Both the position numbers and the translations under genes were made by a program. Positions 9,668 to 20,842 of a DNA stretch of 27,662 bases are shown piece by piece. Source of the DNA: a virus; IMG/VR virus record IMGVR_UViG_3300031669_004405, positions 1-27,662 of that record. The stretch is one strand, 5' to 3'. Position 1 is the stretch's first letter; the number at the start of each line of letters is the position of its first letter. Under the pieces are notes generated by a model. It had not been told where the DNA came from, did no database searches, and saw nothing but the letters and a program-made list of their open reading frames with translations.

Positions 9668-10383
9668 ACTCACAACCTCAAAAAAGTGTGGAGTTTGACC
9701 ACTTAATTGTCACGAGAGGAAATTTAAATTGGGTAGGTGGTGGATTTAGTCCTGCTCACAGCGAAAGAAGAATTCATTTAATGAATCGAACAGTAAGACC
9801 ATCAATCGAACAACAAACAAACAAAAATTTTAAATTCATCAGCCTCTGGAATGAAAAACCAACACATGCTGGAATTGATGGTGAAATAATGGAAGTCATG
9901 AAATCTAAATTTATTTTGAATAAAACATTTACAAAAACACCTGTAATTCATAATGCGGAAATTGTCGAAATTTGTAAAAAACACATTACAAAAAATTATG
10001 TGTTGGTGACTAAAGTGGATAATGATGATTGTTTGGGTATGAATTTCGTTGATGTACTTCAAAAAAACGTTGACATCATAAACTACCCTTATTATTATGA
10101 TATTCTTGCGTTTAGAACATATTATATGATGACAGGAGTAATGGAAATTTGTAAATTACCATATACCAGTATGTTTCTTTCGGTATTGGAAAAAAGTAGT
10201 GATTTTGTTTGTTACCCATATAATTATAAACACACGCAAATCAACAGTGTGCTCAGTGGAAAACATATACGGGAATTAGACGCATTATTTACACAACATT
10301 TAGATAATTCAGTAGCGGGTGCTTACGGTGCGCCAACAAGATTTAATTTAAAACATTATAGTCCTAAATTAACACAACAATGA
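9628..10383 (+). CDS. Putative rhamnosyltransferase-type glycosyltransferase
   Basis: This 251-residue protein resembles the bacterial Rhamno_transf group. HLIVTRGNLNWVGGG (25-39) is the opening strand. RTVRPSIEQQTNKNFKFISLWNEKPTH (54-80) matches the family's 'lPSI..Qt..nF.w....d' line. The metal-site block VLVTKVDNDDCLGMNF lies at 126-140, with D131-N-D-D134. YPYYYDILAFRTYY and YPYNYKHTQINSV are later core pieces. The first 12 residues (MINQGTTYRINL) duplicate the start of the GT9-like gene at 1939, although the two proteins then belong to different folds. That makes the peptide a transferable module, not a family trait. The sugar is not determinable from sequence. Confidence 0.65.
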   Translation: MINQGTTYRINLGNSQPQKSVEFDHLIVTRGNLNWVGGGFSPAHSERRIHLMNRTVRPSIEQQTNKNFKFISLWNEKPTHAGIDGEIMEVMKSKFILNKTFTKTPVIHNAEIVEICKKHITKNYVLVTKVDNDDCLGMNFVDVLQKNVDIINYPYYYDILAFRTYYMMTGVMEICKLPYTSMFLSVLEKSSDFVCYPYNYKHTQINSVLSGKHIRELDALFTQHLDNSVAGAYGAPTRFNLKHYSPKLTQQ

Positions 10384-11210
10384 AGAAAATAATCAATTTC
10401 ACACCAACGGGCATAATGCCAACAAAGGAGAATTCAAATGCACCATTACAACCCAATGAAATAATTGAGGATGTACATCAGGCATTTGAATTAGGTATAA
10501 CATTAACTCATATACATGCAAGAGATAGTAATGATTCAAACACATATAAAACCGAGGTATTTGGTAAAATATTTGATGGGATTAGAAAACATTGCCCCGA
10601 TTTGGTGATTTGTGCTTCTTTATCTGGAAGACTGTTCCCTGAGTTCGAGAAAAGGTCAGAAGTTTTGGAATTATATCCCGATATGGGTTCATTAACAATG
10701 TCGTCAATCAACTTCCCCAAATCGGCATCAATGAACGCACCAGATATGATGATAAATTTGATTGAAAAAATGGATAATTTTGGTATTACCCCAGAGATTG
10801 AATGTTTTGATTCTGGTATGTTGAATTATGCCAATTATTTATTGAGAAAGGGAATCATTAAAAGACCAGCATACATCAATGTGATTTTCGGTAACTTATT
10901 TAATGCACAGGCAGATGTTGCATCGATATCATCGGTGATTAATAATCTTCCCGATGACGTGTTTACCTGTTTTGGTGGTATTGGGAAAGAGCAATTGAAG
11001 ATGACTATCATGGGACTTCTATATGTTGATGGCATTAGAATTGGTTTAGAAGATAATTTTTATTACAACGATAAAGAAAAAACAACAAACATCGAATTAT
11101 TAAAGAGAATTTATAGGGTTATGGATGAACTTGGTCACACAGTATTTAATCACACAGAATTTAAAAATCTTGGATATGGGAACACAAAAATTGGCAATAT
11201 TGGGGGTTAG
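10380..11210 (+). CDS. DUF849 / BKACE-type beta-keto acid cleavage enzyme homologue
   Basis: A 276-residue TIM-barrel protein recognisable as a member of the BKACE (DUF849, Kce-like) family. Known members use Zn2+ to condense a beta-keto acid with acetyl-CoA and cleave it. Visible motifs: INFTPTGIMPTKENSNAPLQP (5-25); THIHARD at 43-49, whose H44 and H46 fit the two Zn-binding histidines; LTMSSINFP (105-113); PEIECFDSGML (138-148); FGNLFNAQAD (170-179); and GIRIGLEDNFYYN (218-230), with R220 and E224-D225 where the family has its arginine, third zinc ligand and catalytic aspartate. Length and residues suggest an active enzyme. Its substrate here is unknown; the context suggests a keto-sugar or acyl precursor. 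The start overlaps the previous stop (ATGA). Confidence 0.85.
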   Translation: MKKIINFTPTGIMPTKENSNAPLQPNEIIEDVHQAFELGITLTHIHARDSNDSNTYKTEVFGKIFDGIRKHCPDLVICASLSGRLFPEFEKRSEVLELYPDMGSLTMSSINFPKSASMNAPDMMINLIEKMDNFGITPEIECFDSGMLNYANYLLRKGIIKRPAYINVIFGNLFNAQADVASISSVINNLPDDVFTCFGGIGKEQLKMTIMGLLYVDGIRIGLEDNFYYNDKEKTTNIELLKRIYRVMDELGHTVFNHTEFKNLGYGNTKIGNIGG

Positions 11211-11847: not shown

Positions 11848-12394
11848 TAATATACATGGTTGGTTTACTTTTCAGGATTTATATTCAGAAATGGTTGAGA
11901 AATTTCCTGATGGGTCACACTTTGTTGAGTTAGGGTCATGGCAAGGTAAAAGTGCTGTATTTATGGGGGTTGAGATAGTTAATTCGAATAAGGATATAAA
12001 ATTTGATTGCATCGATAACTGGTTGTTTGAGGGTGAAATCTATTCTCGAAATTCAGAATACATGAAAATGAAACACAATGCATTTAACATGTTCTTAAAA
12101 AACATTGAGCCATTATCAAAAGTAATTAATTACCATAAAATGGATTCGGTGGAAGCATCTAAATTGTATGATGACGAATCGTTAGAATTTGTATATGTCG
12201 ATGCATCACATTATTACGAAAATGTGAAAAATGACTTAACATATTGGTATCCAAAAGTAAAGAGTGGTGGTGTTATTGCTGGTCACGATTATCAATATGC
12301 TGGGGTTAAGTTAGCTGTGGACGAGTTTTTTACTGGAAAAATAATGAAAACCCCTGAAACAAGTTGGGTTTATTATAAAAATAATTTGATATGA
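11831..12394 (+). CDS. Class I SAM methyltransferase, Methyltransf_24-like
   Basis: From ATG 11831 the protein has 187 residues. Motif I is SHFVELGSWQGKSAVFMGVEI (about 29-49). The acidic strand is FDCIDNWLFEGE. The diagnostic block LEFVYVDASHYYENVKNDLTYWYPKVKSGGVIAGHDY is the canonical Methyltransf_24 second half (VDGxHxYxxVxxDL-x-x-W-x-x-L-K-x-GG). An upstream in-frame ATG (11789) would add 14 residues inside the acyltransferase gene; I prefer 11831, which overlaps it by 17 nt and begins just before the folded region. It is the last methyltransferase before the heptose genes and overlaps the kinase start (ATGA), so it may belong functionally to either group. Confidence 0.8.
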   Translation: MEHYYNNIHGWFTFQDLYSEMVEKFPDGSHFVELGSWQGKSAVFMGVEIVNSNKDIKFDCIDNWLFEGEIYSRNSEYMKMKHNAFNMFLKNIEPLSKVINYHKMDSVEASKLYDDESLEFVYVDASHYYENVKNDLTYWYPKVKSGGVIAGHDYQYAGVKLAVDEFFTGKIMKTPETSWVYYKNNLI

Positions 12395-13149
12395 AAAAAA
12401 CATTAGTAATAGGTGATGGGTGTGAAGACCTCTTTAGGTATGGTACTTGTGACAGGTTAAGTCCTGAAGCACCAGTACCAGTAATGAAGCCAACCAGAAC
12501 TACAGGTAATGGTGGTATGGCAATAAACGTATTTGAGAACCTCAAGGCATTGGGTGTCGATTGTGATATAATTACAAATGATATCAGACCAGTAAAAACC
12601 AGATATGTTGATGAAGTCAGTAATCAGATGTTGTTGCGTGTCGATGAAAAAGATGAAATCAGGGAAATTCTGGCAACTGACTTCGATGCGATTGATTTCA
12701 GTCAATATGGTGCTGTTGTTATTAGTGATTATGATAAAGGATTTCTATCAGATGTGGCGATTCGGTTAATTACTGAAAAACACGGTTTGGTTTTCATGGA
12801 CACTAAGAAAAAAATTGGTGATTGGGCATCGGGTATTGAATACATTAAAATAAATTATAAAGAATTTAAAGAAAATTATGATTGGTTATTAAATGAATTC
12901 GTTGAGGGTGATTTAGTTGTTACAATGGGAAGGAATGGTGCTGTTTTAAACATGACACAAACGTTTTCAATTGAAACTGAACATGAAGTACGTGACCTTA
13001 GTGGTGCTGGAGATACTTTTCTTGCAGGATTAGTTGCAGATTATGTAAAAAATAACGATATTTGCAAGGCAATACGTTTTGCGAATCGATGTTCAGCATG
13101 GGTTGTGTCGCAAAAAGGTGTTGTTGTGGTAAATCCAGAGAAGATATGA
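12391..13149 (+). CDS. hldA: PfkB-type heptose-7-phosphate kinase (HldE N-domain / HldA-like)
   Basis: The enzyme is predicted to phosphorylate D-glycero-beta-D-manno-heptose 7-phosphate at C1. It has 252 residues and matches the kinase domain of HldE (RfaE). GDGCEDLFRYGTCDRLSPEAPVPVM (8-32) contains the near-diagnostic R-x-SPEAPVPV. GNGGMAINVFENLKALG follows (39-55). QMLLRVDEKDE (79-89), VVISDYDKGFLS (109-120), MDTKK (136-140) and LVVTMGRNGAVL (175-186) follow in family order. DLSGAGDTFLAGLVADYV has the anion hole GAGD with catalytic D208. It is about 60 residues shorter than the usual HldE kinase domain and lacks a fused nucleotidyltransferase, which is a separate gene at 14098. The other PfkB sugar kinases are less likely given SPEAPVPV and the neighbours. 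Confidence 0.8.
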   Translation: MKKTLVIGDGCEDLFRYGTCDRLSPEAPVPVMKPTRTTGNGGMAINVFENLKALGVDCDIITNDIRPVKTRYVDEVSNQMLLRVDEKDEIREILATDFDAIDFSQYGAVVISDYDKGFLSDVAIRLITEKHGLVFMDTKKKIGDWASGIEYIKINYKEFKENYDWLLNEFVEGDLVVTMGRNGAVLNMTQTFSIETEHEVRDLSGAGDTFLAGLVADYVKNNDICKAIRFANRCSAWVVSQKGVVVVNPEKI

Positions 13150-13529
13150 GGATAATTGATTCCAAATTACAAACACATAATTGTATTGTTCCAAAGAAAT
13201 GGGGAGAAGAAATTATCATTCATAACGATGAAAATTATTGTGGAAAATTACTTGTTTTTAAGGAAGGTGCTAAATTCAGTATGCATTTCCATATGAAAAA
13301 AAAAGAAACTTTTTACGTACAGGAAGGAAAATTTCTTCTTAAGTACATCGACACAAGAGATGCAACACCAATGGAAGAGGAATTAACTGCTGGTATGATT
13401 ATCGAAGTTCAACAGGGTGACCCACATCAATTGTTGGCTTTAACAAAAGGCATTATATTTGAAGTTAGCACACAACACTTTGATGATGATAGTTATAGAA
13501 TAGGGAAAGGAGACAGTCAAAATGGATAA
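13146..13529 (+). CDS. Cupin-domain protein
   Basis: A 127-residue protein beginning at ATG 13146, which overlaps the kinase stop (ATGA); an upstream ATG at 13062 in the same frame lies inside the kinase gene and is unlikely. After KKWGEEIIIHNDENYCGKLLVF comes cupin motif 1, FSMHFHMKKKETFYVQEGKFLL, with the H-x-H-(x)-E metal ligands. Motif 2 is a shorter GDPHQLLALTKGIIFEVS with the histidine. Single-domain cupins in glycan loci include sugar-phosphate isomerases, epimerases and the C-domain of mannose-1-phosphate guanylyltransferases, and the KxWGxE opening is shared with that group. Its place inside the heptose operon suggests a sugar-phosphate substrate. It might stand in for a missing step such as the isomerase, but I have no motif evidence for that. 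Confidence 0.75.
   Translation: MRIIDSKLQTHNCIVPKKWGEEIIIHNDENYCGKLLVFKEGAKFSMHFHMKKKETFYVQEGKFLLKYIDTRDATPMEEELTAGMIIEVQQGDPHQLLALTKGIIFEVSTQHFDDDSYRIGKGDSQNG
13508..13512 (+). promoter_or_regulatory. Shine-Dalgarno sequence for the gene at 13522
   Basis: AGGAG stands 9 nt before ATG 13522, inside the end of the cupin gene. Clear purine-rich ribosome sites are rare elsewhere in this window, so this one stands out. Confidence 0.6.
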
Positions 13530-13809
13530 AAATTACACAAAACCACACGACAAGGATTACAAAGACACGCCAGAAGATTACCTATGGCTTGTAATGGCAT
13601 TTGGAAGGGCATTAAGTGCAATGCTTGGTGATGGGCAAGGTATCTTGATTGATATGAAAGCCGATGCATTAAAAATAAGACCAGAAGCAAAGCGTGTTGT
13701 GGTTTTTAATGATGGTAAAATGATTAGGGTTGTTGATGCCAGTGAACGCACTGACCTCAAAGACGGTGATAGGATTCAGATGATTGATAAAAACTTTATT
13801 TCGAACTGA
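13522..13809 (+). CDS. Small protein of unknown function in the heptose operon
   Basis: A 95-residue soluble protein that I do not recognise. It has a hydrophilic N-terminus rich in D and K (1-18), a helix YLWLVMAFGRALSAMLGDGQG (20-40), and then strand-rich residues (LIDMKADALKIRPEAKRVVVFNDGKMIRVVDA) ending with LKDGDRIQMIDKNF. No catalytic motif is visible. A good Shine-Dalgarno (AGGAG, 9 nt upstream) marks the start. It overlaps the cupin gene by 8 nt and the HAD gene by a single base (TGATG). The tight coupling on both sides implies a role with the heptose enzymes or simple co-expression. Confidence 0.7.
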   Translation: MDKNYTKPHDKDYKDTPEDYLWLVMAFGRALSAMLGDGQGILIDMKADALKIRPEAKRVVVFNDGKMIRVVDASERTDLKDGDRIQMIDKNFISN

Positions 13810-14096
13810 TGTTGATTTACTGTGATGTTGACGGTACAATATGTACAACCGAGGGTGGTTACGACAATGCGAAACCAATTCCAGAGAATATAGCCAAAAT
13901 CAATAAACTGTTTGACGAAGGTAATATCATAGTTTACTGGACTGCCAGAGGCGGTAATACTGGCAAGGATTGGACGGAACTCACTGGACAACAACTTGTT
14001 GCGTGGGGTTGCCGATTTCACGATGTTATTATGAGACAGAAACCCGCATTTGATTTATTGATTGATGACAAGAGTAAACGAATAGAAGAAATTTAA
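13809..14096 (+). CDS. Small HAD-superfamily phosphatase, capsule-type (EcbF/BcbF-like)
   Basis: This 95-residue protein is a minimal HAD phosphatase. Motif I is IYCDVDGTICTT with nucleophile D6 and acid D8, motif II is IVYWTARGG (T/A-R) and the C-terminal motif is LLIDDKSKR with the Mg-binding acidic pair. Its pattern DGTICTTEGGYDNAKPIPENIAKINKLFDEG is close to the small capsule-biosynthesis phosphatases of the EcbF-BcbF group. Between a heptose kinase and a heptose-1-phosphate nucleotidyltransferase, the expected missing reaction is removal of the 7-phosphate (GmhB), which is also HAD chemistry. GmhB is about 180 residues and has a zinc loop that is absent here, so this would be a substitute, not a GmhB orthologue. 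Function inferred. Confidence 0.75.
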   Translation: MLIYCDVDGTICTTEGGYDNAKPIPENIAKINKLFDEGNIIVYWTARGGNTGKDWTELTGQQLVAWGCRFHDVIMRQKPAFDLLIDDKSKRIEEI

Positions 14097-14097
14097 T

Positions 14098-14529
14098 ATG
14101 AATATCTGGGTAAACGGATGCTTTGACATCTTACATACAGGACATCTTGACTTATTTTGGTACGCCAAATTATATGGTGTTGAGGGTCTTGGGTATCACG
14201 AAGCCATGAAGGTGAATAAACTTTATGTTGGTATTGATACCGATGAAAGGGTTAAGATGCTGAAAGGTGACAGTAGACCGATAAACGATGCCCATGATAG
14301 GGCGAAAATGCTCAGTAATTTAAAAATGATTGACAGCGTTGTTATATTTCATGATGACGATGAAATGCGATATTTTATAACATCTTTTAATACTGATTAT
14401 TTAATGGTGGGTGACCATTACAGGGATAAAGTTGTAATTGGTGCTGAGTGTGCAAAGTCTGGGGTTATTTACTATCCTACAGATGAGAGGTCAAGTACAG
14501 GCATTATTGAAAAAATAAAGAAACTATGA
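14098..14529 (+). CDS. hldC: Heptose-1-phosphate nucleotidyltransferase (HldE C-domain / HldC-like)
   Basis: A 143-residue nucleotidyltransferase of the cytidylyltransferase-like fold. WVNGCFDILHTGHLDLFWYAK has the HxGH motif at 13-16, binding the ATP phosphates. LYVGIDTDERVKMLKGDSRPINDAHDRAKMLSNLKMIDSVVIF matches the GlcE-type block of HldE. DYLMVGDHYRDKVVIGAE and RSSTGIIEKIKKL close it, with the S-T-G-I motif of the family. It should join AMP from ATP to heptose 1-phosphate to give ADP-heptose. Other members (glycerol-3-phosphate or phosphoethanolamine cytidylyltransferases) share the fold, but the kinase, HAD and epimerase neighbours favour heptose. It begins 1 nt after the HAD stop and overlaps the epimerase start (ATGA). 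Confidence 0.85.
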   Translation: MNIWVNGCFDILHTGHLDLFWYAKLYGVEGLGYHEAMKVNKLYVGIDTDERVKMLKGDSRPINDAHDRAKMLSNLKMIDSVVIFHDDDEMRYFITSFNTDYLMVGDHYRDKVVIGAECAKSGVIYYPTDERSSTGIIEKIKKL

Positions 14530-15491
14530 TTGTAGTTACAGGCGGTGCAGGTTTTATTGGTCAGAATTTAGTTAATAAATTAATTGAATTGGGACATGAA
14601 AATATTGTTGTTATCGATAATAATATTAATAGGTCGATTGAGAAGTATTTTGGTGTTAAATATATGACCGTTGAAGATTCGTACCTCTGGCTTGAGTTCA
14701 ACCGTTATGACATTGATGTTGTTTATCATCTGGGCGCACGTACTGATACTATGGAGAAGGACGAGAAGATTTTCGAACGTCTTAATCTGAATTACAGTAA
14801 GTTGATTTGGAATTTCTGTAGTGATTACGATATTTCTTTGATTTATGCCAGCAGTGCTGCTACTTATGGTGATGGAGAAGACGGGTTTGATGACGAAGAA
14901 CCCATTCTTAATTTAAAACCGTTAAATCCCTATGGTGAATACAAACACTATTTTGACATGTACGCCCTTGGTAACTCAATTGGTGATAAGAAGTATCAAC
15001 CATCGTTCTGGACAGGATTGAAGTTCTTCAATGTTTATGGAAACCATGAAGAACATAAAGGTGCAATGGCATCGGTTATCTGGCATTTCTACCATCAAAT
15101 AAAAGAAACTGGTGCTGTGAAACTATTTAAATCACATGTTGATTTTTGTGAAGACGGTGAACAAAAACGTGATTTTATTCACGTTTCTGATATCATAAAT
15201 GTGATGATTTTACTTTATGACATCAGACATATTGTGCCTTCAGACATCTATAATCTGGGTACAGGACAAGCCAGAACATACAACGATTTGGCAAAAGCAA
15301 TTTTTAAAAGTTTAGGAAAACAAGAGAATATATCATATATTGACACCCCTTTGGAAATCAGGGATAGTTACCAATACTACACCAGAGCTAAAATGGATAA
15401 ACTACTTGAAACTATTTCGGGGTACAATTTTCTTACGTTGGAAGAAGGTATTGATTTGTATATAAAACTATTAGAATATGAAAATTGCTAA
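14526..15491 (+). CDS. hldD: ADP-L-glycero-D-manno-heptose 6-epimerase-like protein
   Basis: A 321-residue extended short-chain dehydrogenase/reductase. NAD(P) motif TGGAGFIG is at 5-12. YHLGARTDTMEKDEK is the HldD-specific G-A-x-T-D-T segment. SSAATYGDGEDGF comes at 109-121 and the catalytic Y136-x3-K140 pair at NPYGEYK. FFNVYGNHEEHKGAMASVIWHFYHQ and GEQKRDFIHVSDIINV follow, and NLGTGQARTYNDLAKAIF closes. These features, and the length (HldD is ~310), identify it well. The predicted reaction is 6-epimerisation of ADP-D-glycero-D-manno-heptose to the L-form, completing the donor for heptosyltransferases. A 14-nt overlap with the following unknown gene suggests that gene is cotranscribed. Confidence 0.9.
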   Translation: MIVVTGGAGFIGQNLVNKLIELGHENIVVIDNNINRSIEKYFGVKYMTVEDSYLWLEFNRYDIDVVYHLGARTDTMEKDEKIFERLNLNYSKLIWNFCSDYDISLIYASSAATYGDGEDGFDDEEPILNLKPLNPYGEYKHYFDMYALGNSIGDKKYQPSFWTGLKFFNVYGNHEEHKGAMASVIWHFYHQIKETGAVKLFKSHVDFCEDGEQKRDFIHVSDIINVMILLYDIRHIVPSDIYNLGTGQARTYNDLAKAIFKSLGKQENISYIDTPLEIRDSYQYYTRAKMDKLLETISGYNFLTLEEGIDLYIKLLEYENC

Positions 15492-16346: not shown

Positions 16347-17114
16347 ATGGCAAATGAAAAGAAATCGAATCTTTCTGAAGAATATCTAAGAAAGTTCAGA
16401 CATCGTTCGGGATACGTAATCAATGAATCCCCAAAATATCGTCCATTAGTGACTGATAATGAGGAATTTGATGAAATTCCTGTACTTGAGGTAGGTGACC
16501 AAGAAGATGCTCCGAAACCACAAGGTTTAGTGCGTCCAGCACCAAGTAATGACGTACCACAAGGTGCTGAAACACCAGTTCCAGCATTTGATGCTGAAGC
16601 AGGTGGTGAGCCACCAGAAGGTGAGATGACTGACCCAATGGGTGAACCAACGGCAGGTGAAGACCCACTGATTGGCGGTCCACAGGCTGCTGATGCTGGT
16701 ATGGGTATGCCACCACCAGAACCTGAAAACGAGGTCGATGACCTTCAAAACGAAATTATTAAACACAATATCGAAGCCATGAGAAGTATTCACGACCAAT
16801 TAGAAGGTTTGAATTCAACCATTCAGGGACTGAATCAGAAAATGGATGTATTGGGTGCTGAAGTTGAAGAAGTTCGTGAACCAACTGACTCGGAAAAACT
16901 CATGAATAAAACCGATGTGAGTTATCCTTATTATTTCAATCTAAATGATTTGTGGTCAGATAACTGGTTTGACCAAAAGCGTGTTGGTGCTGATGGCAAG
17001 ACTGATGATAGAGGTATGAAAGAATTACCTGATGGTACTTATGTTGCGGATTTCGATGATTTACCGCAGAAGTCTAAGATAGATGTGCAGAACAGTTTTA
17101 ACGACATGGTGTAA
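16347..17114 (+). CDS. Putative capsid-associated acidic protein with I-N-E processing-like site
   Basis: This 255-residue protein starts with SEEYLRKFRHRSGYVINESP. I25-N26-E27 lies at the same place as the L-N-E of the next three proteins and fits the T4 prohead protease rule (L/I)-x-E followed by a cut. Residues 45-130 are low-complexity, rich in P, G, E, D and A (PAPSNDVPQGAETPVPAF and so on), and look disordered. Residues 130-175 (DLQNEIIKHNIEAMRSIHDQLEGLNSTIQGLNQKMDVL) are a likely coiled coil. The C-terminal ~70 residues (YPYYFNLNDLWSDNWFDQKRVG) look folded. I do not recognise the family. A head-internal or decoration role is inferred from the N-terminal pattern and neighbours. Confidence 0.7.
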   Translation: MANEKKSNLSEEYLRKFRHRSGYVINESPKYRPLVTDNEEFDEIPVLEVGDQEDAPKPQGLVRPAPSNDVPQGAETPVPAFDAEAGGEPPEGEMTDPMGEPTAGEDPLIGGPQAADAGMGMPPPEPENEVDDLQNEIIKHNIEAMRSIHDQLEGLNSTIQGLNQKMDVLGAEVEEVREPTDSEKLMNKTDVSYPYYFNLNDLWSDNWFDQKRVGADGKTDDRGMKELPDGTYVADFDDLPQKSKIDVQNSFNDMV

Positions 17115-18031
17115 TGAAGAAATATGATAAACAAAGATTATTTGAAGTCATGGGAAGACTTGACCCAACGTTTAAACCCAGATTAAATGAGGGAGATGCC
17201 TTCAATGATGCTGGTGAGCCATTAATGACACATCAACAATTTAATGATTACAGTGAACCTGCTGAACCTGAGTACGATGATAATGAAAAACCACAATACC
17301 CAAAAGGTATGGGTGATTTTAATCATGTTGATTGGCAAATGGTACATGAACAACTGGTTATAAATACCGAATTACTTAGAGCAAATAAAACAAGTGACGG
17401 TAATTTAATGGCTGCAAATGTTGGTGATTTTACCGATTATGATGGTATGTTGAGTCCTGAAGAATTAAAACAACTCGAAGCATTTAATTTGATTTGGATT
17501 GACGGTCATTTTCCAATGATTGATGACGAACAATATTTGGATTTCGAAACATTTAAAGCAAAGGCTGCTGAGATATGGGATAAAGATACTCCAAGTCAGA
17601 TACAACCAAATGATAGTGAAGCACCTTATTTAAGAGGTAGAGAACCAATGTCGGAAGAAGAATTTGGTGCTCAAGAGTTACCAATACAAAATGTTCCTTC
17701 TCAGATTGATGGACGTAGTAAAGTAAGTGCAAAGAATTTAATATATAAACACATTGAACCTTTAATGAAAGGTATTTTTAGTGATGAATCATGGGAAGGT
17801 GTTAGAAAAATATGGGATAAGTTTGGTGAATTGGGTCTTGATTGGGATTTTAGCCGTAATTCCGAATATTATGGTGGCATGCCACCACAAGGCAAAACTT
17901 GGTATTTCGAAATCAAGTTCATGGGAAATAACGACAGACCCCAAACATTATTTGGTACTTTAACAGCAGCAGGTGCTGGTAGCGTTGAAGACCCATTAGG
18001 TAGATACGATATAACAGTAGTATTGTCATAA
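17114..18031 (+). CDS. Putative capsid-targeted protein with N-terminal L-N-E peptide
   Basis: A 305-residue acidic protein. Residues 6-16 (KQRLFEVMGRL) and the L24-N25-E26-G27 site parallel those of the two following genes (KERLFEM / KERFLEM, then L-N-E). After a disordered stretch (27-70), the middle (75-150) has WQMVHEQLVINTELLRANK and FTDYDGMLSPEELKQLEAFNLIWIDGHFPMI. The C-terminal third holds AKNLIYKHIEPLMKGIFSDESWEGVRKIWDKFGELG, followed by a beta-rich end (KTWYFEIKFMGNNDRPQTLFGTL). No enzyme motif is visible. T4 internal head proteins carry a short N-terminal targeting peptide removed by gp21 protease, and this looks analogous. The gene overlaps the preceding stop by 1 nt (TAATG). Confidence 0.7.
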   Translation: MKKYDKQRLFEVMGRLDPTFKPRLNEGDAFNDAGEPLMTHQQFNDYSEPAEPEYDDNEKPQYPKGMGDFNHVDWQMVHEQLVINTELLRANKTSDGNLMAANVGDFTDYDGMLSPEELKQLEAFNLIWIDGHFPMIDDEQYLDFETFKAKAAEIWDKDTPSQIQPNDSEAPYLRGREPMSEEEFGAQELPIQNVPSQIDGRSKVSAKNLIYKHIEPLMKGIFSDESWEGVRKIWDKFGELGLDWDFSRNSEYYGGMPPQGKTWYFEIKFMGNNDRPQTLFGTLTAAGAGSVEDPLGRYDITVVLS

Positions 18032-18032
18032 C

Positions 18033-18473
18033 ATGAAAATATTTCACCCATATGGTTCAAAAGAAAGACTCTTTGAAATGGTGAATAGAGTTAATGGTCT
18101 CAATGAAGAACTTCTCCCAAAAGAGAAGAAAGAAGAGATTATTAATAAATTCGTCAAAGAAGTTTGTAAATATTTGGGTGTTAGTAGTAATAAGATAGAG
18201 ATATCATATGACCCAAAAGAAGCACAGGGAATGTCTTCTTTCGGTAAACACACCCCAAGTACGGGGATTATTAGAGTGGTTGCAGAGAATCGAAACCTTG
18301 CTGATGTTCTGAGAACACTGGCACACGAGTTGGTTCATCGCAAGCAAGAGAAAGAAGGTAAACTTTATGCTGGTGCTGGTGATGATGGTACTAACATTGA
18401 AAACGAAGCAAATGCTGAAGCAGCATTAATAATGAGAAGGTTTGGTAAAACCAATCCGATAATTTTTGAATAA
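18033..18473 (+). CDS. Small HExxH metallopeptidase-like protein with capsid-targeting-like N-terminus
   Basis: A 146-residue protein in two parts. Residues 8-25 (GSKERLFEMVNRVNGLNE) match the next gene's start (GSKERFLEMFQGVNK, then QLNE) and end in L23-N24-E25, a prohead-protease-type site. After a linker helix (LLPKEKKEEIINKFVKEVCKYLG), residues 80-130 look like a minimal zincin. RVVAENRNLADVLRTLAHELVHRKQEKEG contains H98-E99-L-V-H102, and ENEANAEAALIMRRFG gives E125 or E129 as candidate third zinc ligand, as in gluzincin-like folds. Cellular substrates cannot be inferred. If packaged it could be injected with the DNA or act in the virion. A non-catalytic HELVH by chance is less likely because the helix and downstream Glu also fit. 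Confidence 0.75.
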   Translation: MKIFHPYGSKERLFEMVNRVNGLNEELLPKEKKEEIINKFVKEVCKYLGVSSNKIEISYDPKEAQGMSSFGKHTPSTGIIRVVAENRNLADVLRTLAHELVHRKQEKEGKLYAGAGDDGTNIENEANAEAALIMRRFGKTNPIIFE

Positions 18474-18484
18474 AAACAGAGGCT

Positions 18485-20842
18485 ATGAAAATAAAAACAC
18501 CAATTGGTAGTAAAGAAAGATTCCTTGAAATGTTTCAAGGCGTTAATAAAGTTCAACTAAACGAAGTCAATACAAATGTGGTGCAAACTGGCACACAATT
18601 GATTGAAAAAGCGTTTGAAGAACTAAAAAATAAACAAGCCAACATTCAACAAACTAATACACAAACAGTTGGTGATAATAATTTTGTTGAAATAATCAGT
18701 AATGACGAAGAAGGTAATGTAATTACATTCAAATTTAAAATTGATTCAGCAGAAGGTGACCAAGATGGTGTCTATAATGTGAGTAATGCGGTTCTATCTG
18801 AATTCAAAGTTCAATCACAAACACTTAATGTTGATATGCCCGAAAATATGGAGGCTGTGCAGGATTTTAATGCGAATCATGGTGGTGAAATCATGGATGT
18901 CGTTAGTGAATATGCTAATTTTGAAACCGAGACTGCAAGTCTTGGTGACGAGGTTTATGAGGAAGCCGTAAGATTCATTGATAAAGTACCATATAAAAAA
19001 GGCACGGAGCAAATGCAAACCAATAAAGCATATGCCGACCAGAAACCAACTAATCCTGATGTAAGAGTTAAATCTGATGAATTGGATAAATTTGTGAGTG
19101 AAATGGATGAATATGAACCAGAAGCCGAAGAAGACCCAATGGCGTTACCGCCCGAATTTACTGATGCCGACATACCTGATGACGATGATGATACAAAAGG
19201 TATCGACCCTTTTGACCAAGAAATAATGGATTATGAAAATGATGATGAACCTCTGGAACAAGTAAGTCCAGAGAAGGCTGCTGTTATTAATCAGGCTTAT
19301 GACAACCTTGTCAATGCTGGAAATCAAGCACCCACAACTAATGAAATAATGGCAGAAATCGATAGGTTACAGGGTAAAGTAAAACCAGTTGAAAAAACAA
19401 GAGCAATTCCTAAAGGTGCTGAAGCATTTTGGGAAAGCAAACATAAGGTTATTGATATGAATGCCGATACCGCAACCCAACATTTGTACAATAAAACGGT
19501 TTCACCAGAAATGAAGGAAAAAGTAATTAGATTTGCCGATGAAATTCTTGGTGAACGTCTTGGGGTTAGAAAATTTCAAATGCCCAGAGAAGAATATCTG
19601 GAAATGGTTAGGAAATTGGCAATTGAAATTTATCGACAAGATGCTATTGAAATGAATGAAACCGAAGAAAAGAAAATCAGTAAAGATTACCCAGACCAAA
19701 TGGGAAAGAAGTTCAAACCCAAAAATCAGATACCAAAGAAAAAGAAGAGACCACAATCTGTGGTAAAACTAAGTGAGGAATCTGAAATACCTCAAGAATA
19801 TTGGGGAAATCCTGAAGATGAGATAAATGAAGAAGATGTTGAAAAAGAAAAAGAAGAAGTTGGTGATATGATTGCTGGTGGTAAAGCCGATAAGAAAAAA
19901 CCACAGGATTTTGATAAAGAACAAATAAAGATGGGATTAAAAGTTGAGATGGAACACACTGATGACCCAATGGTTGCTATTGAAATTACTATGGACCACC
20001 TTACAGAATTTCCTGATTACTATACACGTCTTGATAAAATGGAAAAACAAGCTAAAGGTGATACCAAATCAGAAAGTGAAGAACCTCATGAAAGCGGTGC
20101 ATATCTTCAAGACGGCATGCCCGGTGAGAAAGACCGAAATGGACACCCAATACCATCAGTTGACCCAAATTTTACTATGATGAAGCCAATGGAAGGTATG
20201 GTAGATAATACTCCTGAAGAAGAAGAAATTACTGATGAATTACTTGGATATAAACCACATAATGTCGGTGATTATGCAAGTGAAGAATTTGACCATGTTC
20301 CAAGTGCTGATGCCGAAAAACAATATTGGGATAAAGAACATTACAAACAAGACCAAGAAAAAGAAGTTGGTGGAGAAGAGGAAAAAGAAGAAATTATTGA
20401 CGAAGAAGACGGAATGGAAGAATATACTGGTGAAGTTGGTGACCGTTACCAAGACGGTGAAGGTAACCAATTCACAGTAAGAGATATGGTAAAAGGCGGT
20501 GTGACGTTACAGGGACAAGGTGGTGATAAAGAAATTGCTACACGTGATATACAGTTTTTGAAAAAACTCAGTGAAGAGGTAAATAAACATATTGTTGTAT
20601 ATGATGGTACATCTGCTTATGTTGAAAATGAAAATAATATTCCAGAAGATGTTGAGGTAATAGGAAGATTTAATAATATCGATGATGCCCAAGCATTTGC
20701 TGATAAATATAATGATAGTGCATATGCCATTACCGAAGAACAAGTTAAAACGGCAAGACAGGCATTGAATAGGAGAGGAATTACTGATGGAATGACGAAA
20801 AAAGAAGCTGTACAACTTTTAATCAAGCACAATATCAAATAA
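18485..20842 (+). CDS. Large acidic putative virion protein with DUF5661-like segment
   Basis: A 785-residue, strongly acidic protein. The N-terminus (GSKERFLEMFQGVNK, then L25-N26-E27) is homologous to the start of the HELVH gene just upstream. Residues ~28-180 look folded (EIISNDEEGNVITFKFKI). Residues 200-260 are low-complexity acid (PDDDDDTK). Residues 320-395 include EEYLEMVRKLAIEIYRQDAI. About 407-424 is a basic patch with KPKNQIPKKKKRP. About 475-523 matches the DUF5661 pattern (DFDKEQIKMGLKVEMEH, then AIEITMDHLTEFPDYYTRLDKME). An acidic stretch and a C-terminal ~130 residues follow (TVRDMVKGGVTLQGQGG; DDAQAFADKYNDSAYAITEEQ). Such composition suggests an abundant internal or head-filling protein; the function is unknown. 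A hairpin terminator follows. Confidence 0.75.
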   Translation: MKIKTPIGSKERFLEMFQGVNKVQLNEVNTNVVQTGTQLIEKAFEELKNKQANIQQTNTQTVGDNNFVEIISNDEEGNVITFKFKIDSAEGDQDGVYNVSNAVLSEFKVQSQTLNVDMPENMEAVQDFNANHGGEIMDVVSEYANFETETASLGDEVYEEAVRFIDKVPYKKGTEQMQTNKAYADQKPTNPDVRVKSDELDKFVSEMDEYEPEAEEDPMALPPEFTDADIPDDDDDTKGIDPFDQEIMDYENDDEPLEQVSPEKAAVINQAYDNLVNAGNQAPTTNEIMAEIDRLQGKVKPVEKTRAIPKGAEAFWESKHKVIDMNADTATQHLYNKTVSPEMKEKVIRFADEILGERLGVRKFQMPREEYLEMVRKLAIEIYRQDAIEMNETEEKKISKDYPDQMGKKFKPKNQIPKKKKRPQSVVKLSEESEIPQEYWGNPEDEINEEDVEKEKEEVGDMIAGGKADKKKPQDFDKEQIKMGLKVEMEHTDDPMVAIEITMDHLTEFPDYYTRLDKMEKQAKGDTKSESEEPHESGAYLQDGMPGEKDRNGHPIPSVDPNFTMMKPMEGMVDNTPEEEEITDELLGYKPHNVGDYASEEFDHVPSADAEKQYWDKEHYKQDQEKEVGGEEEKEEIIDEEDGMEEYTGEVGDRYQDGEGNQFTVRDMVKGGVTLQGQGGDKEIATRDIQFLKKLSEEVNKHIVVYDGTSAYVENENNIPEDVEVIGRFNNIDDAQAFADKYNDSAYAITEEQVKTARQALNRRGITDGMTKKEAVQLLIKHNIK

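Follow-up and report, generated by a model that had tools for sequence, protein, structure and literature searches.

In phage T4, leaders of 10-19 residues direct internal proteins to the core and are subsequently taken off, and gp21 is reported to cut after L/I-X-E, the site used by gp21-type proteases (PMC9026906); the internal proteins are otherwise a diverse set that has the leader as its sole common feature (PMC3012670). Packaged zincin domains with possible host-directed or self-processing roles have also been reviewed (PMC5512222), co-ejection of the zincin-domain protein DdrB of P1 and its effect on type I restriction have been described (PMC12810830), and zincins of jumbo phages have been noted as possible virion-maturation or host-directed enzymes (PMC7824862). 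Internal proteins with a capsid-targeting sequence (CTS) and packaged phage zincin domains are both known. Here, an open reading frame (ORF) is described that joins a short leader of this kind to a small zincin core. It lies in a 27.7-kb viral DNA, IMG/VR record IMGVR_UViG_3300031669_004405, which was analysed over positions 1 to 27,662 (the window). The combination of a standalone zinc peptidase as a recurrent CTS cargo with a lineage-wide leader of 25 residues did not turn up in the open-licence literature searched.

Profile searches of the window proteins identified UvsX-like and exonuclease genes, and the window lies in a T4-like phage. Its closest long relative, a contig of 324,744 bases (G001), encodes a UvsX that is 71% identical and a zincin that is 80% identical. 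The features of the zincin gene are as follows.

18033-18473, plus strand: zincin ORF with ATG start, 146 amino acids, a leader followed by a zincin core (ORF call, profile and family searches, homologues)
18057-18080, plus strand: putative docking helix of the leader, residues 9-16 (SKERLFEM); helix predicted over residues 10-21; ratio of nonsynonymous to synonymous rates (dN/dS) 0.059; present on about 18 unrelated families
18099-18107, plus strand: LNE, residues 23-25, a predicted prohead-protease site with cleavage expected after E25; predicted local distance difference test (pLDDT) below 50
18120-18452, plus strand: zincin core, residues 30-140; helix, three strands, HExxH helix and Glu helix (AlphaFold2 and fold matches)
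18324-18338, plus strand: HELVH, residues 98-102; two zinc ligands and the catalytic Glu (predicted); invariant in the alignment and in the wider family
18399-18401, plus strand: E123, probable third zinc ligand; HExxH-x20-E spacing; invariant in the alignment of 32 homologues

Taken together, the zincin is probably a T4-type internal head protein that is trimmed after E25, ejected with the DNA and active as a peptidase in the host. During head assembly, the N-terminal helix (residues 9-16) would dock the protein into the prohead scaffold, and a gp21-type prohead protease would then cut after LNE, so that the capsid would contain the mature zinc peptidase, about 121 residues long. This peptidase would leave the capsid with the DNA and enter the host, where H98, H102 and E123 would hold zinc, E99 would act as general base, and one or more host proteins would be cleaved early in infection. 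The computations show the zincin fold with its active site, the modularity of the leader, the conservation of the processing site and a prohead protease in relatives; packaging, cutting, injection and catalysis are the steps that we infer.

A modular leader and its predicted processing site

The earlier note, made from the letters of the window without database searches, had read the N-terminus KERLFEM...LNE as head-targeting-like. The motif is present at residues 10-25 (K10-E-R-L-F-E-M16, then L23-N-E25), and the reading is supported by the modularity of the leader, its constraint and its match to the capsid site. In 2.9 million viral contigs, the leader pattern occurs in at least 118 stretches, whereas scrambling it without changing its composition gives 14. 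With the leader removed, the bodies of the 114 tagged ORFs that were collected form 19 clusters, one of which is a doubtful ORF of 55 amino acids; the cargo families include the zincin, a DUF5661 protein, a GP88 protein and a cupin. The presence of the leader on about 18 unrelated families of related T4-like jumbo phages is not chance.

Constraint along the zincin genes is bimodal, being strong on the helix and on LNE but not on the linker between them. In pooled pairwise comparisons, which include some sequences found via the leader pattern and pairs that are related and non-independent, the helix has a dN/dS of 0.059, the linker (residues 17-22) one of 0.789 and LNE one of 0.055; the values for the core and the active site are 0.143 and 0.069, respectively. 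The leader ends in [LI][ND]E in all 28 tagged zincins that were found by core patterns alone; one more, L243, has LKE there. In the structural model, residues 21-25 lie in an unconfident, exposed or flexible stretch.

Relatives that bear the leader also encode the corresponding head maturation machinery. In G001, for instance, there are genes for a gp23-type capsid protein (phrog_138, 5.7e-66), a gp20-type portal and a gp21-type prohead protease (phrog_207, 1.3e-27), the last with its match split by an intein-like insert. The capsid proteins of all 12 tag-bearing phages read MINE|SS or MINE|ST where they align with the T4 gp23 site FLTE|AE, and on the strength of this alignment MINE|S is presumably their maturation site. 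The phrog_207 protease is present in 11 of the 12 large tag-bearing contigs (in the twelfth, G024, the capsid gene is near the contig end) and in all five zincin-bearing genomes above 170 kb that were checked. As a separate observation, intein-like inserts occur in the prohead protease and terminase genes of G001 (63002-64846 and 47719-50661; L022, L021), its portal ORF has endonuclease-like inserts, and G021, G022, G026 and G018 likewise have a split protease match.

In other phages, the same zincin family begins with different leaders. Zincin ORFs without the KERLFEM leader start with MLTFKQYIAE, MHTFKRYLQE, MKKFKQFLNE, MKKFREYLKE or MKTFKQYLAE, and that of Synechococcus phage B23 starts with MNYKQFLRE, followed by STEKQ; T4 IPII and IPIII start with MKTYQEFIAE, a proven capsid-targeting sequence, which resembles the MKTFKQYLAE found on a zincin. 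Such a T4 internal-protein-like start is present in 5 of 40 zincin ORFs but in only 1 of the 204 ORFs that accompany them in these loci (p 5e-4, to be read as indicative). In 36 of 43 zincin ORFs, the last 23 residues ahead of the core include an [LI]xE, against a background of 27%. The leader is very probably a head-targeting sequence, because it is modular, ends in L/I-x-E, matches the capsid maturation site and is replaced elsewhere by leaders of the T4 IPIII type. It resembles the system of T4 IPI, IPII, IPIII and Alt (PMC9026906, PMC3012670), in which a short leader ending in L/I-x-E is likewise found on unrelated cargos and served by a gp21-type protease, with nearly identical leaders on the homologous zincins of other phages. 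However, the present leader has about 25 residues and a KxRLFEM helix. The cargo differs as well, being a predicted zinc peptidase here, while the T4 cargos that have been characterised act as a restriction inhibitor and as an ADP-ribosyltransferase.

The zincin core and its active site

The earlier note had also placed HELVH at residues 98-102 of a zincin-like core, and structure prediction agrees. An AlphaFold2 model built with a 32-sequence alignment has a mean pLDDT of 78.8 and a predicted template modelling score of 0.71, and pLDDT by blocks of the core is mostly 74-93, with 69 in block 111-120. In the model, a helix (30-48) is followed by three strands (55-58, 71-74 and 79-83); HExxH lies in a second helix (89-107), and a third (121-140) is the Glu helix. 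In Foldseek and VIA-align comparisons, the top rows are nearly all zincins with coincident motifs, at moderate VIA-align Z values (Wss1 9.3, selecase 7.5, IrrE 7.4, ArdC and minigluzincins 6.5); lethal-factor-like rows of the list reflect the common zincin fold only. Among viral models, the close structural matches are likewise phage proteins; several have more than one domain, and no role is known for any of them. As modelled, the core is a gluzincin-type zincin fold with conserved HExxH and E123.

Twelve positions are invariant across the 32 aligned homologues: R87, D91, R94, H98, E99, H102, Q105, E123, N124, E125, A126 and N127. HExxH, whose non-conservation the note had named as refuting, is kept beyond this alignment too: it occurs in each of 80 loci retrieved with core patterns from which HExxH was absent, as counted by a script match plus reading of seven loci that the script missed. 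The third ligand had been sought among E123-E129, and E123 is the most probable candidate because E125, the other invariant-looking Glu, is Gln in the wider family members L243, L248 and L265, in which E123 is kept. H98, H102 and E123 would bind zinc, and peptidase catalysis is predicted.

Matches to known families are consistent with a zincin and do not assign the protein to any one of them. The window protein scores below the Pfam gathering thresholds for M91 (18.6 bits, cut-off 25) and DUF3920 (15 bits, cut-off 27.3) and has no M78 match at E up to 1, although 16 of the 32 family members match Pfam M78 weakly. The sub-threshold Pfam matches to Peptidase_M91, DUF3920, Tox-MPTase3 and M76 were taken only as signs of a zincin. 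IrrE/PprI and ImmA (Pfam M78) likewise have HExxH and an E-x-E-A-N-like helix, but the zincin has no helix-turn-helix or sensor domain. Other candidates were rejected: the PDB sequence match 9hnh (E 9e-5) is compositional, pairing only helical repeats with residues 13-57; the NCBIfam Hvo_1808 match is far below its cut-off; and the PADLOC matches to RmrA and capP are weak and were set aside.

Solved structures of similar size and architecture are the minigluzincins (proabylysin and projannalysin) and selecase, which share a core of about 110 residues, HExxH and Glu, and Z values of 6.5-7.5. The description of the protein as unusually small does not stand, since its mature core of about 120 amino acids is close to these structures (104-109 amino acids). 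They are, however, cellular archaeal proteins without a capsid leader or a detectable sequence relation to the zincin. A latency prosegment as in minigluzincins that docks on the active site was also considered for the leader and dropped, as the model has low confidence in this part.

The family is essentially viral, with at least 590 members in viral contigs by profile scan and one match in 84,980 prokaryote genomes. In many members the zincin is one domain among several, alongside a nucleotidyltransferase, a zeta-toxin-like or a nucleotidase-like domain. These fusions of distant homologues recall the zincin-like metallopeptidase (MPTase) domains, described in 12 clades, of polyvalent proteins such as P1 DdrB and the N4 virion RNA polymerase (PMC5512222), in which a phage zincin is likewise tied to virion packaging. 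In contrast, the present protein is a standalone single domain with a leader predicted to be processed.

Several multi-domain members have features of their own. In L007 (7368-8360) and L290, a domain of about 200 residues that starts YHFTKITSIKSIL precedes the zincin, with LHE just before the zincin; it has no Pfam match and a possible relation to ADP-ribosyltransferase-like folds. L014 (722-3802) encodes a protein of about 1030 residues that combines a nucleotidyltransferase, a zincin, a zeta-toxin-like kinase and DUF6321; this protein is possibly a polyprotein that is packaged and cleaved at L/I-x-E sites within it. Additionally, multi-domain zincin proteins (L249, L252, L264, L276, L251 and others) have common N-termini, for instance MNLGQYLVQQLLE and ..WWKEVLDLNE; these are apparently additional families of head-targeting leaders.

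Neighbouring genes and alternative roles

The zincin gene is the middle one of three consecutive leader-tagged genes (17114, 18033 and 18485), which follow a further ORF.

16347-17114, plus strand: upstream ORF, 255 amino acids; INE at residues 25-27, no KERLFEM helix (sequence)
17114-18031, plus strand: tagged ORF MKKYDKQRLFEVMGRLDPTFKPRLNE, 305 amino acids, without known family; related tagged proteins form one body cluster
18485-20842, plus strand: tagged ORF MKIKTPIGSKERFLEMFQGVNKVQLNE, 785 amino acids, Pfam DUF5661 (E 2.3e-14); usual downstream partner of the zincin

The homologue of the 16347 ORF in G001 (123564-124319) lies directly before the G001 zincin and has VNE at the INE position; the ORF is a possible head protein.

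The earlier note had proposed two roles for a packaged protease, injection into the host and processing of virion proteins, of which the former is favoured here. A zincin acting inside the prohead or virion, where it would trim tagged proteins such as the 785-residue DUF5661 protein, is unlikely, although it is the best supported of the alternatives. The DUF5661 gene directly follows the zincin gene in nearly all tagged loci, and processing of P1 DdrB by its own zincin domain has been proposed (PMC5512222). However, action on head proteins is made less likely by three related phages (G013, G017 and G022) that keep tagged DUF5661 proteins and have no zincin. Additionally, in other lineages the zincin lies beside other genes or is fused to other enzymes, and cleavage during maturation is already provided by gp21.

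A packaged core that works by binding, and not by proteolysis, is less probable still. This role keeps some chance because ArdC of plasmid R388, a zincin protein that is among the fold matches (Z 6.5) and is likewise tied to evading restriction upon DNA entry, defeats restriction independently of its metalloprotease activity (PMC7213743). ArdC, however, is made in the recipient and has a single-stranded-DNA-binding ArdC-N domain that the zincin lacks, and the invariance of HExxH and E123 in a very wide family, together with the low active-site dN/dS, argues against a binding role. Finally, a leader with a purpose other than packaging, such as docking to a host or phage complex during infection, is very improbable: its helix exceeds T4 CTSs in length and the S-SRM01 homologue has no obvious leader, but it ends in the same L/I-N-E as the capsid maturation site, this site is fixed while the linker is free, and T4-type leaders take its place in other lineages.

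Several points nevertheless weigh against assigning the zincin to the T4-type internal head proteins. The window is a fragment without head genes, and the protease and capsid evidence comes from relatives; the lineage of this zincin has no close isolate. The homologue in Synechococcus phage S-SRM01 has no obvious leader. Against solved structures, Foldseek gives only weak E-values, 0.013 at best, and middling VIA-align Z scores are common. Additionally, the [LI]xE distance and some tests were framed after examples, and the sequences are related and not independent.

Elsewhere in the window, positions 12391-15491 contain ADP-heptose pathway genes, namely a heptose-7-phosphate kinase-like gene (TIGR02198), an adenylyltransferase-like gene (TIGR02199) and an ADP-glyceromanno-heptose 6-epimerase (TIGR02197) that passes the curated cut-off. 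They sit within an extended array (1-15 kb) of genes resembling glycosyltransferases and methyltransferases, and positions 10380-11210 encode an apparently complete phage beta-keto acid cleavage enzyme (BKACE; E 3.7e-63).

Implications for head-delivered proteins

The least certain part of the proposed internal-head-protein role is what the peptidase does in the host and to which target, for which the chances are about even. Restriction or defence proteins, or regulators, would be the likeliest substrates, and anti-restriction or host takeover is favoured. On a similarly balanced estimate, T4-like phages of several lineages bring a dedicated zinc peptidase out of the capsid and into the host cytoplasm together with the first DNA, and this peptidase cleaves a host defence or regulatory protein, one jumbo lineage using a shared and hitherto undescribed tag of 25 residues for some 18 cargo families.

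If this is true, phage heads would bring a standard proteolytic effector into cells ahead of any phage gene expression; until now, mainly restriction inhibitors and ADP-ribosyltransferases have been known to act in this way. Because homologous zincins carry T4-type leaders, both packaging and function would be testable in laboratory T4 and E. coli. Additionally, the injected proteome of uncultured jumbo phages mostly lacks assigned functions, and KxRLFEM followed by a short linker and LNE would be a simple sequence key for cataloguing it.
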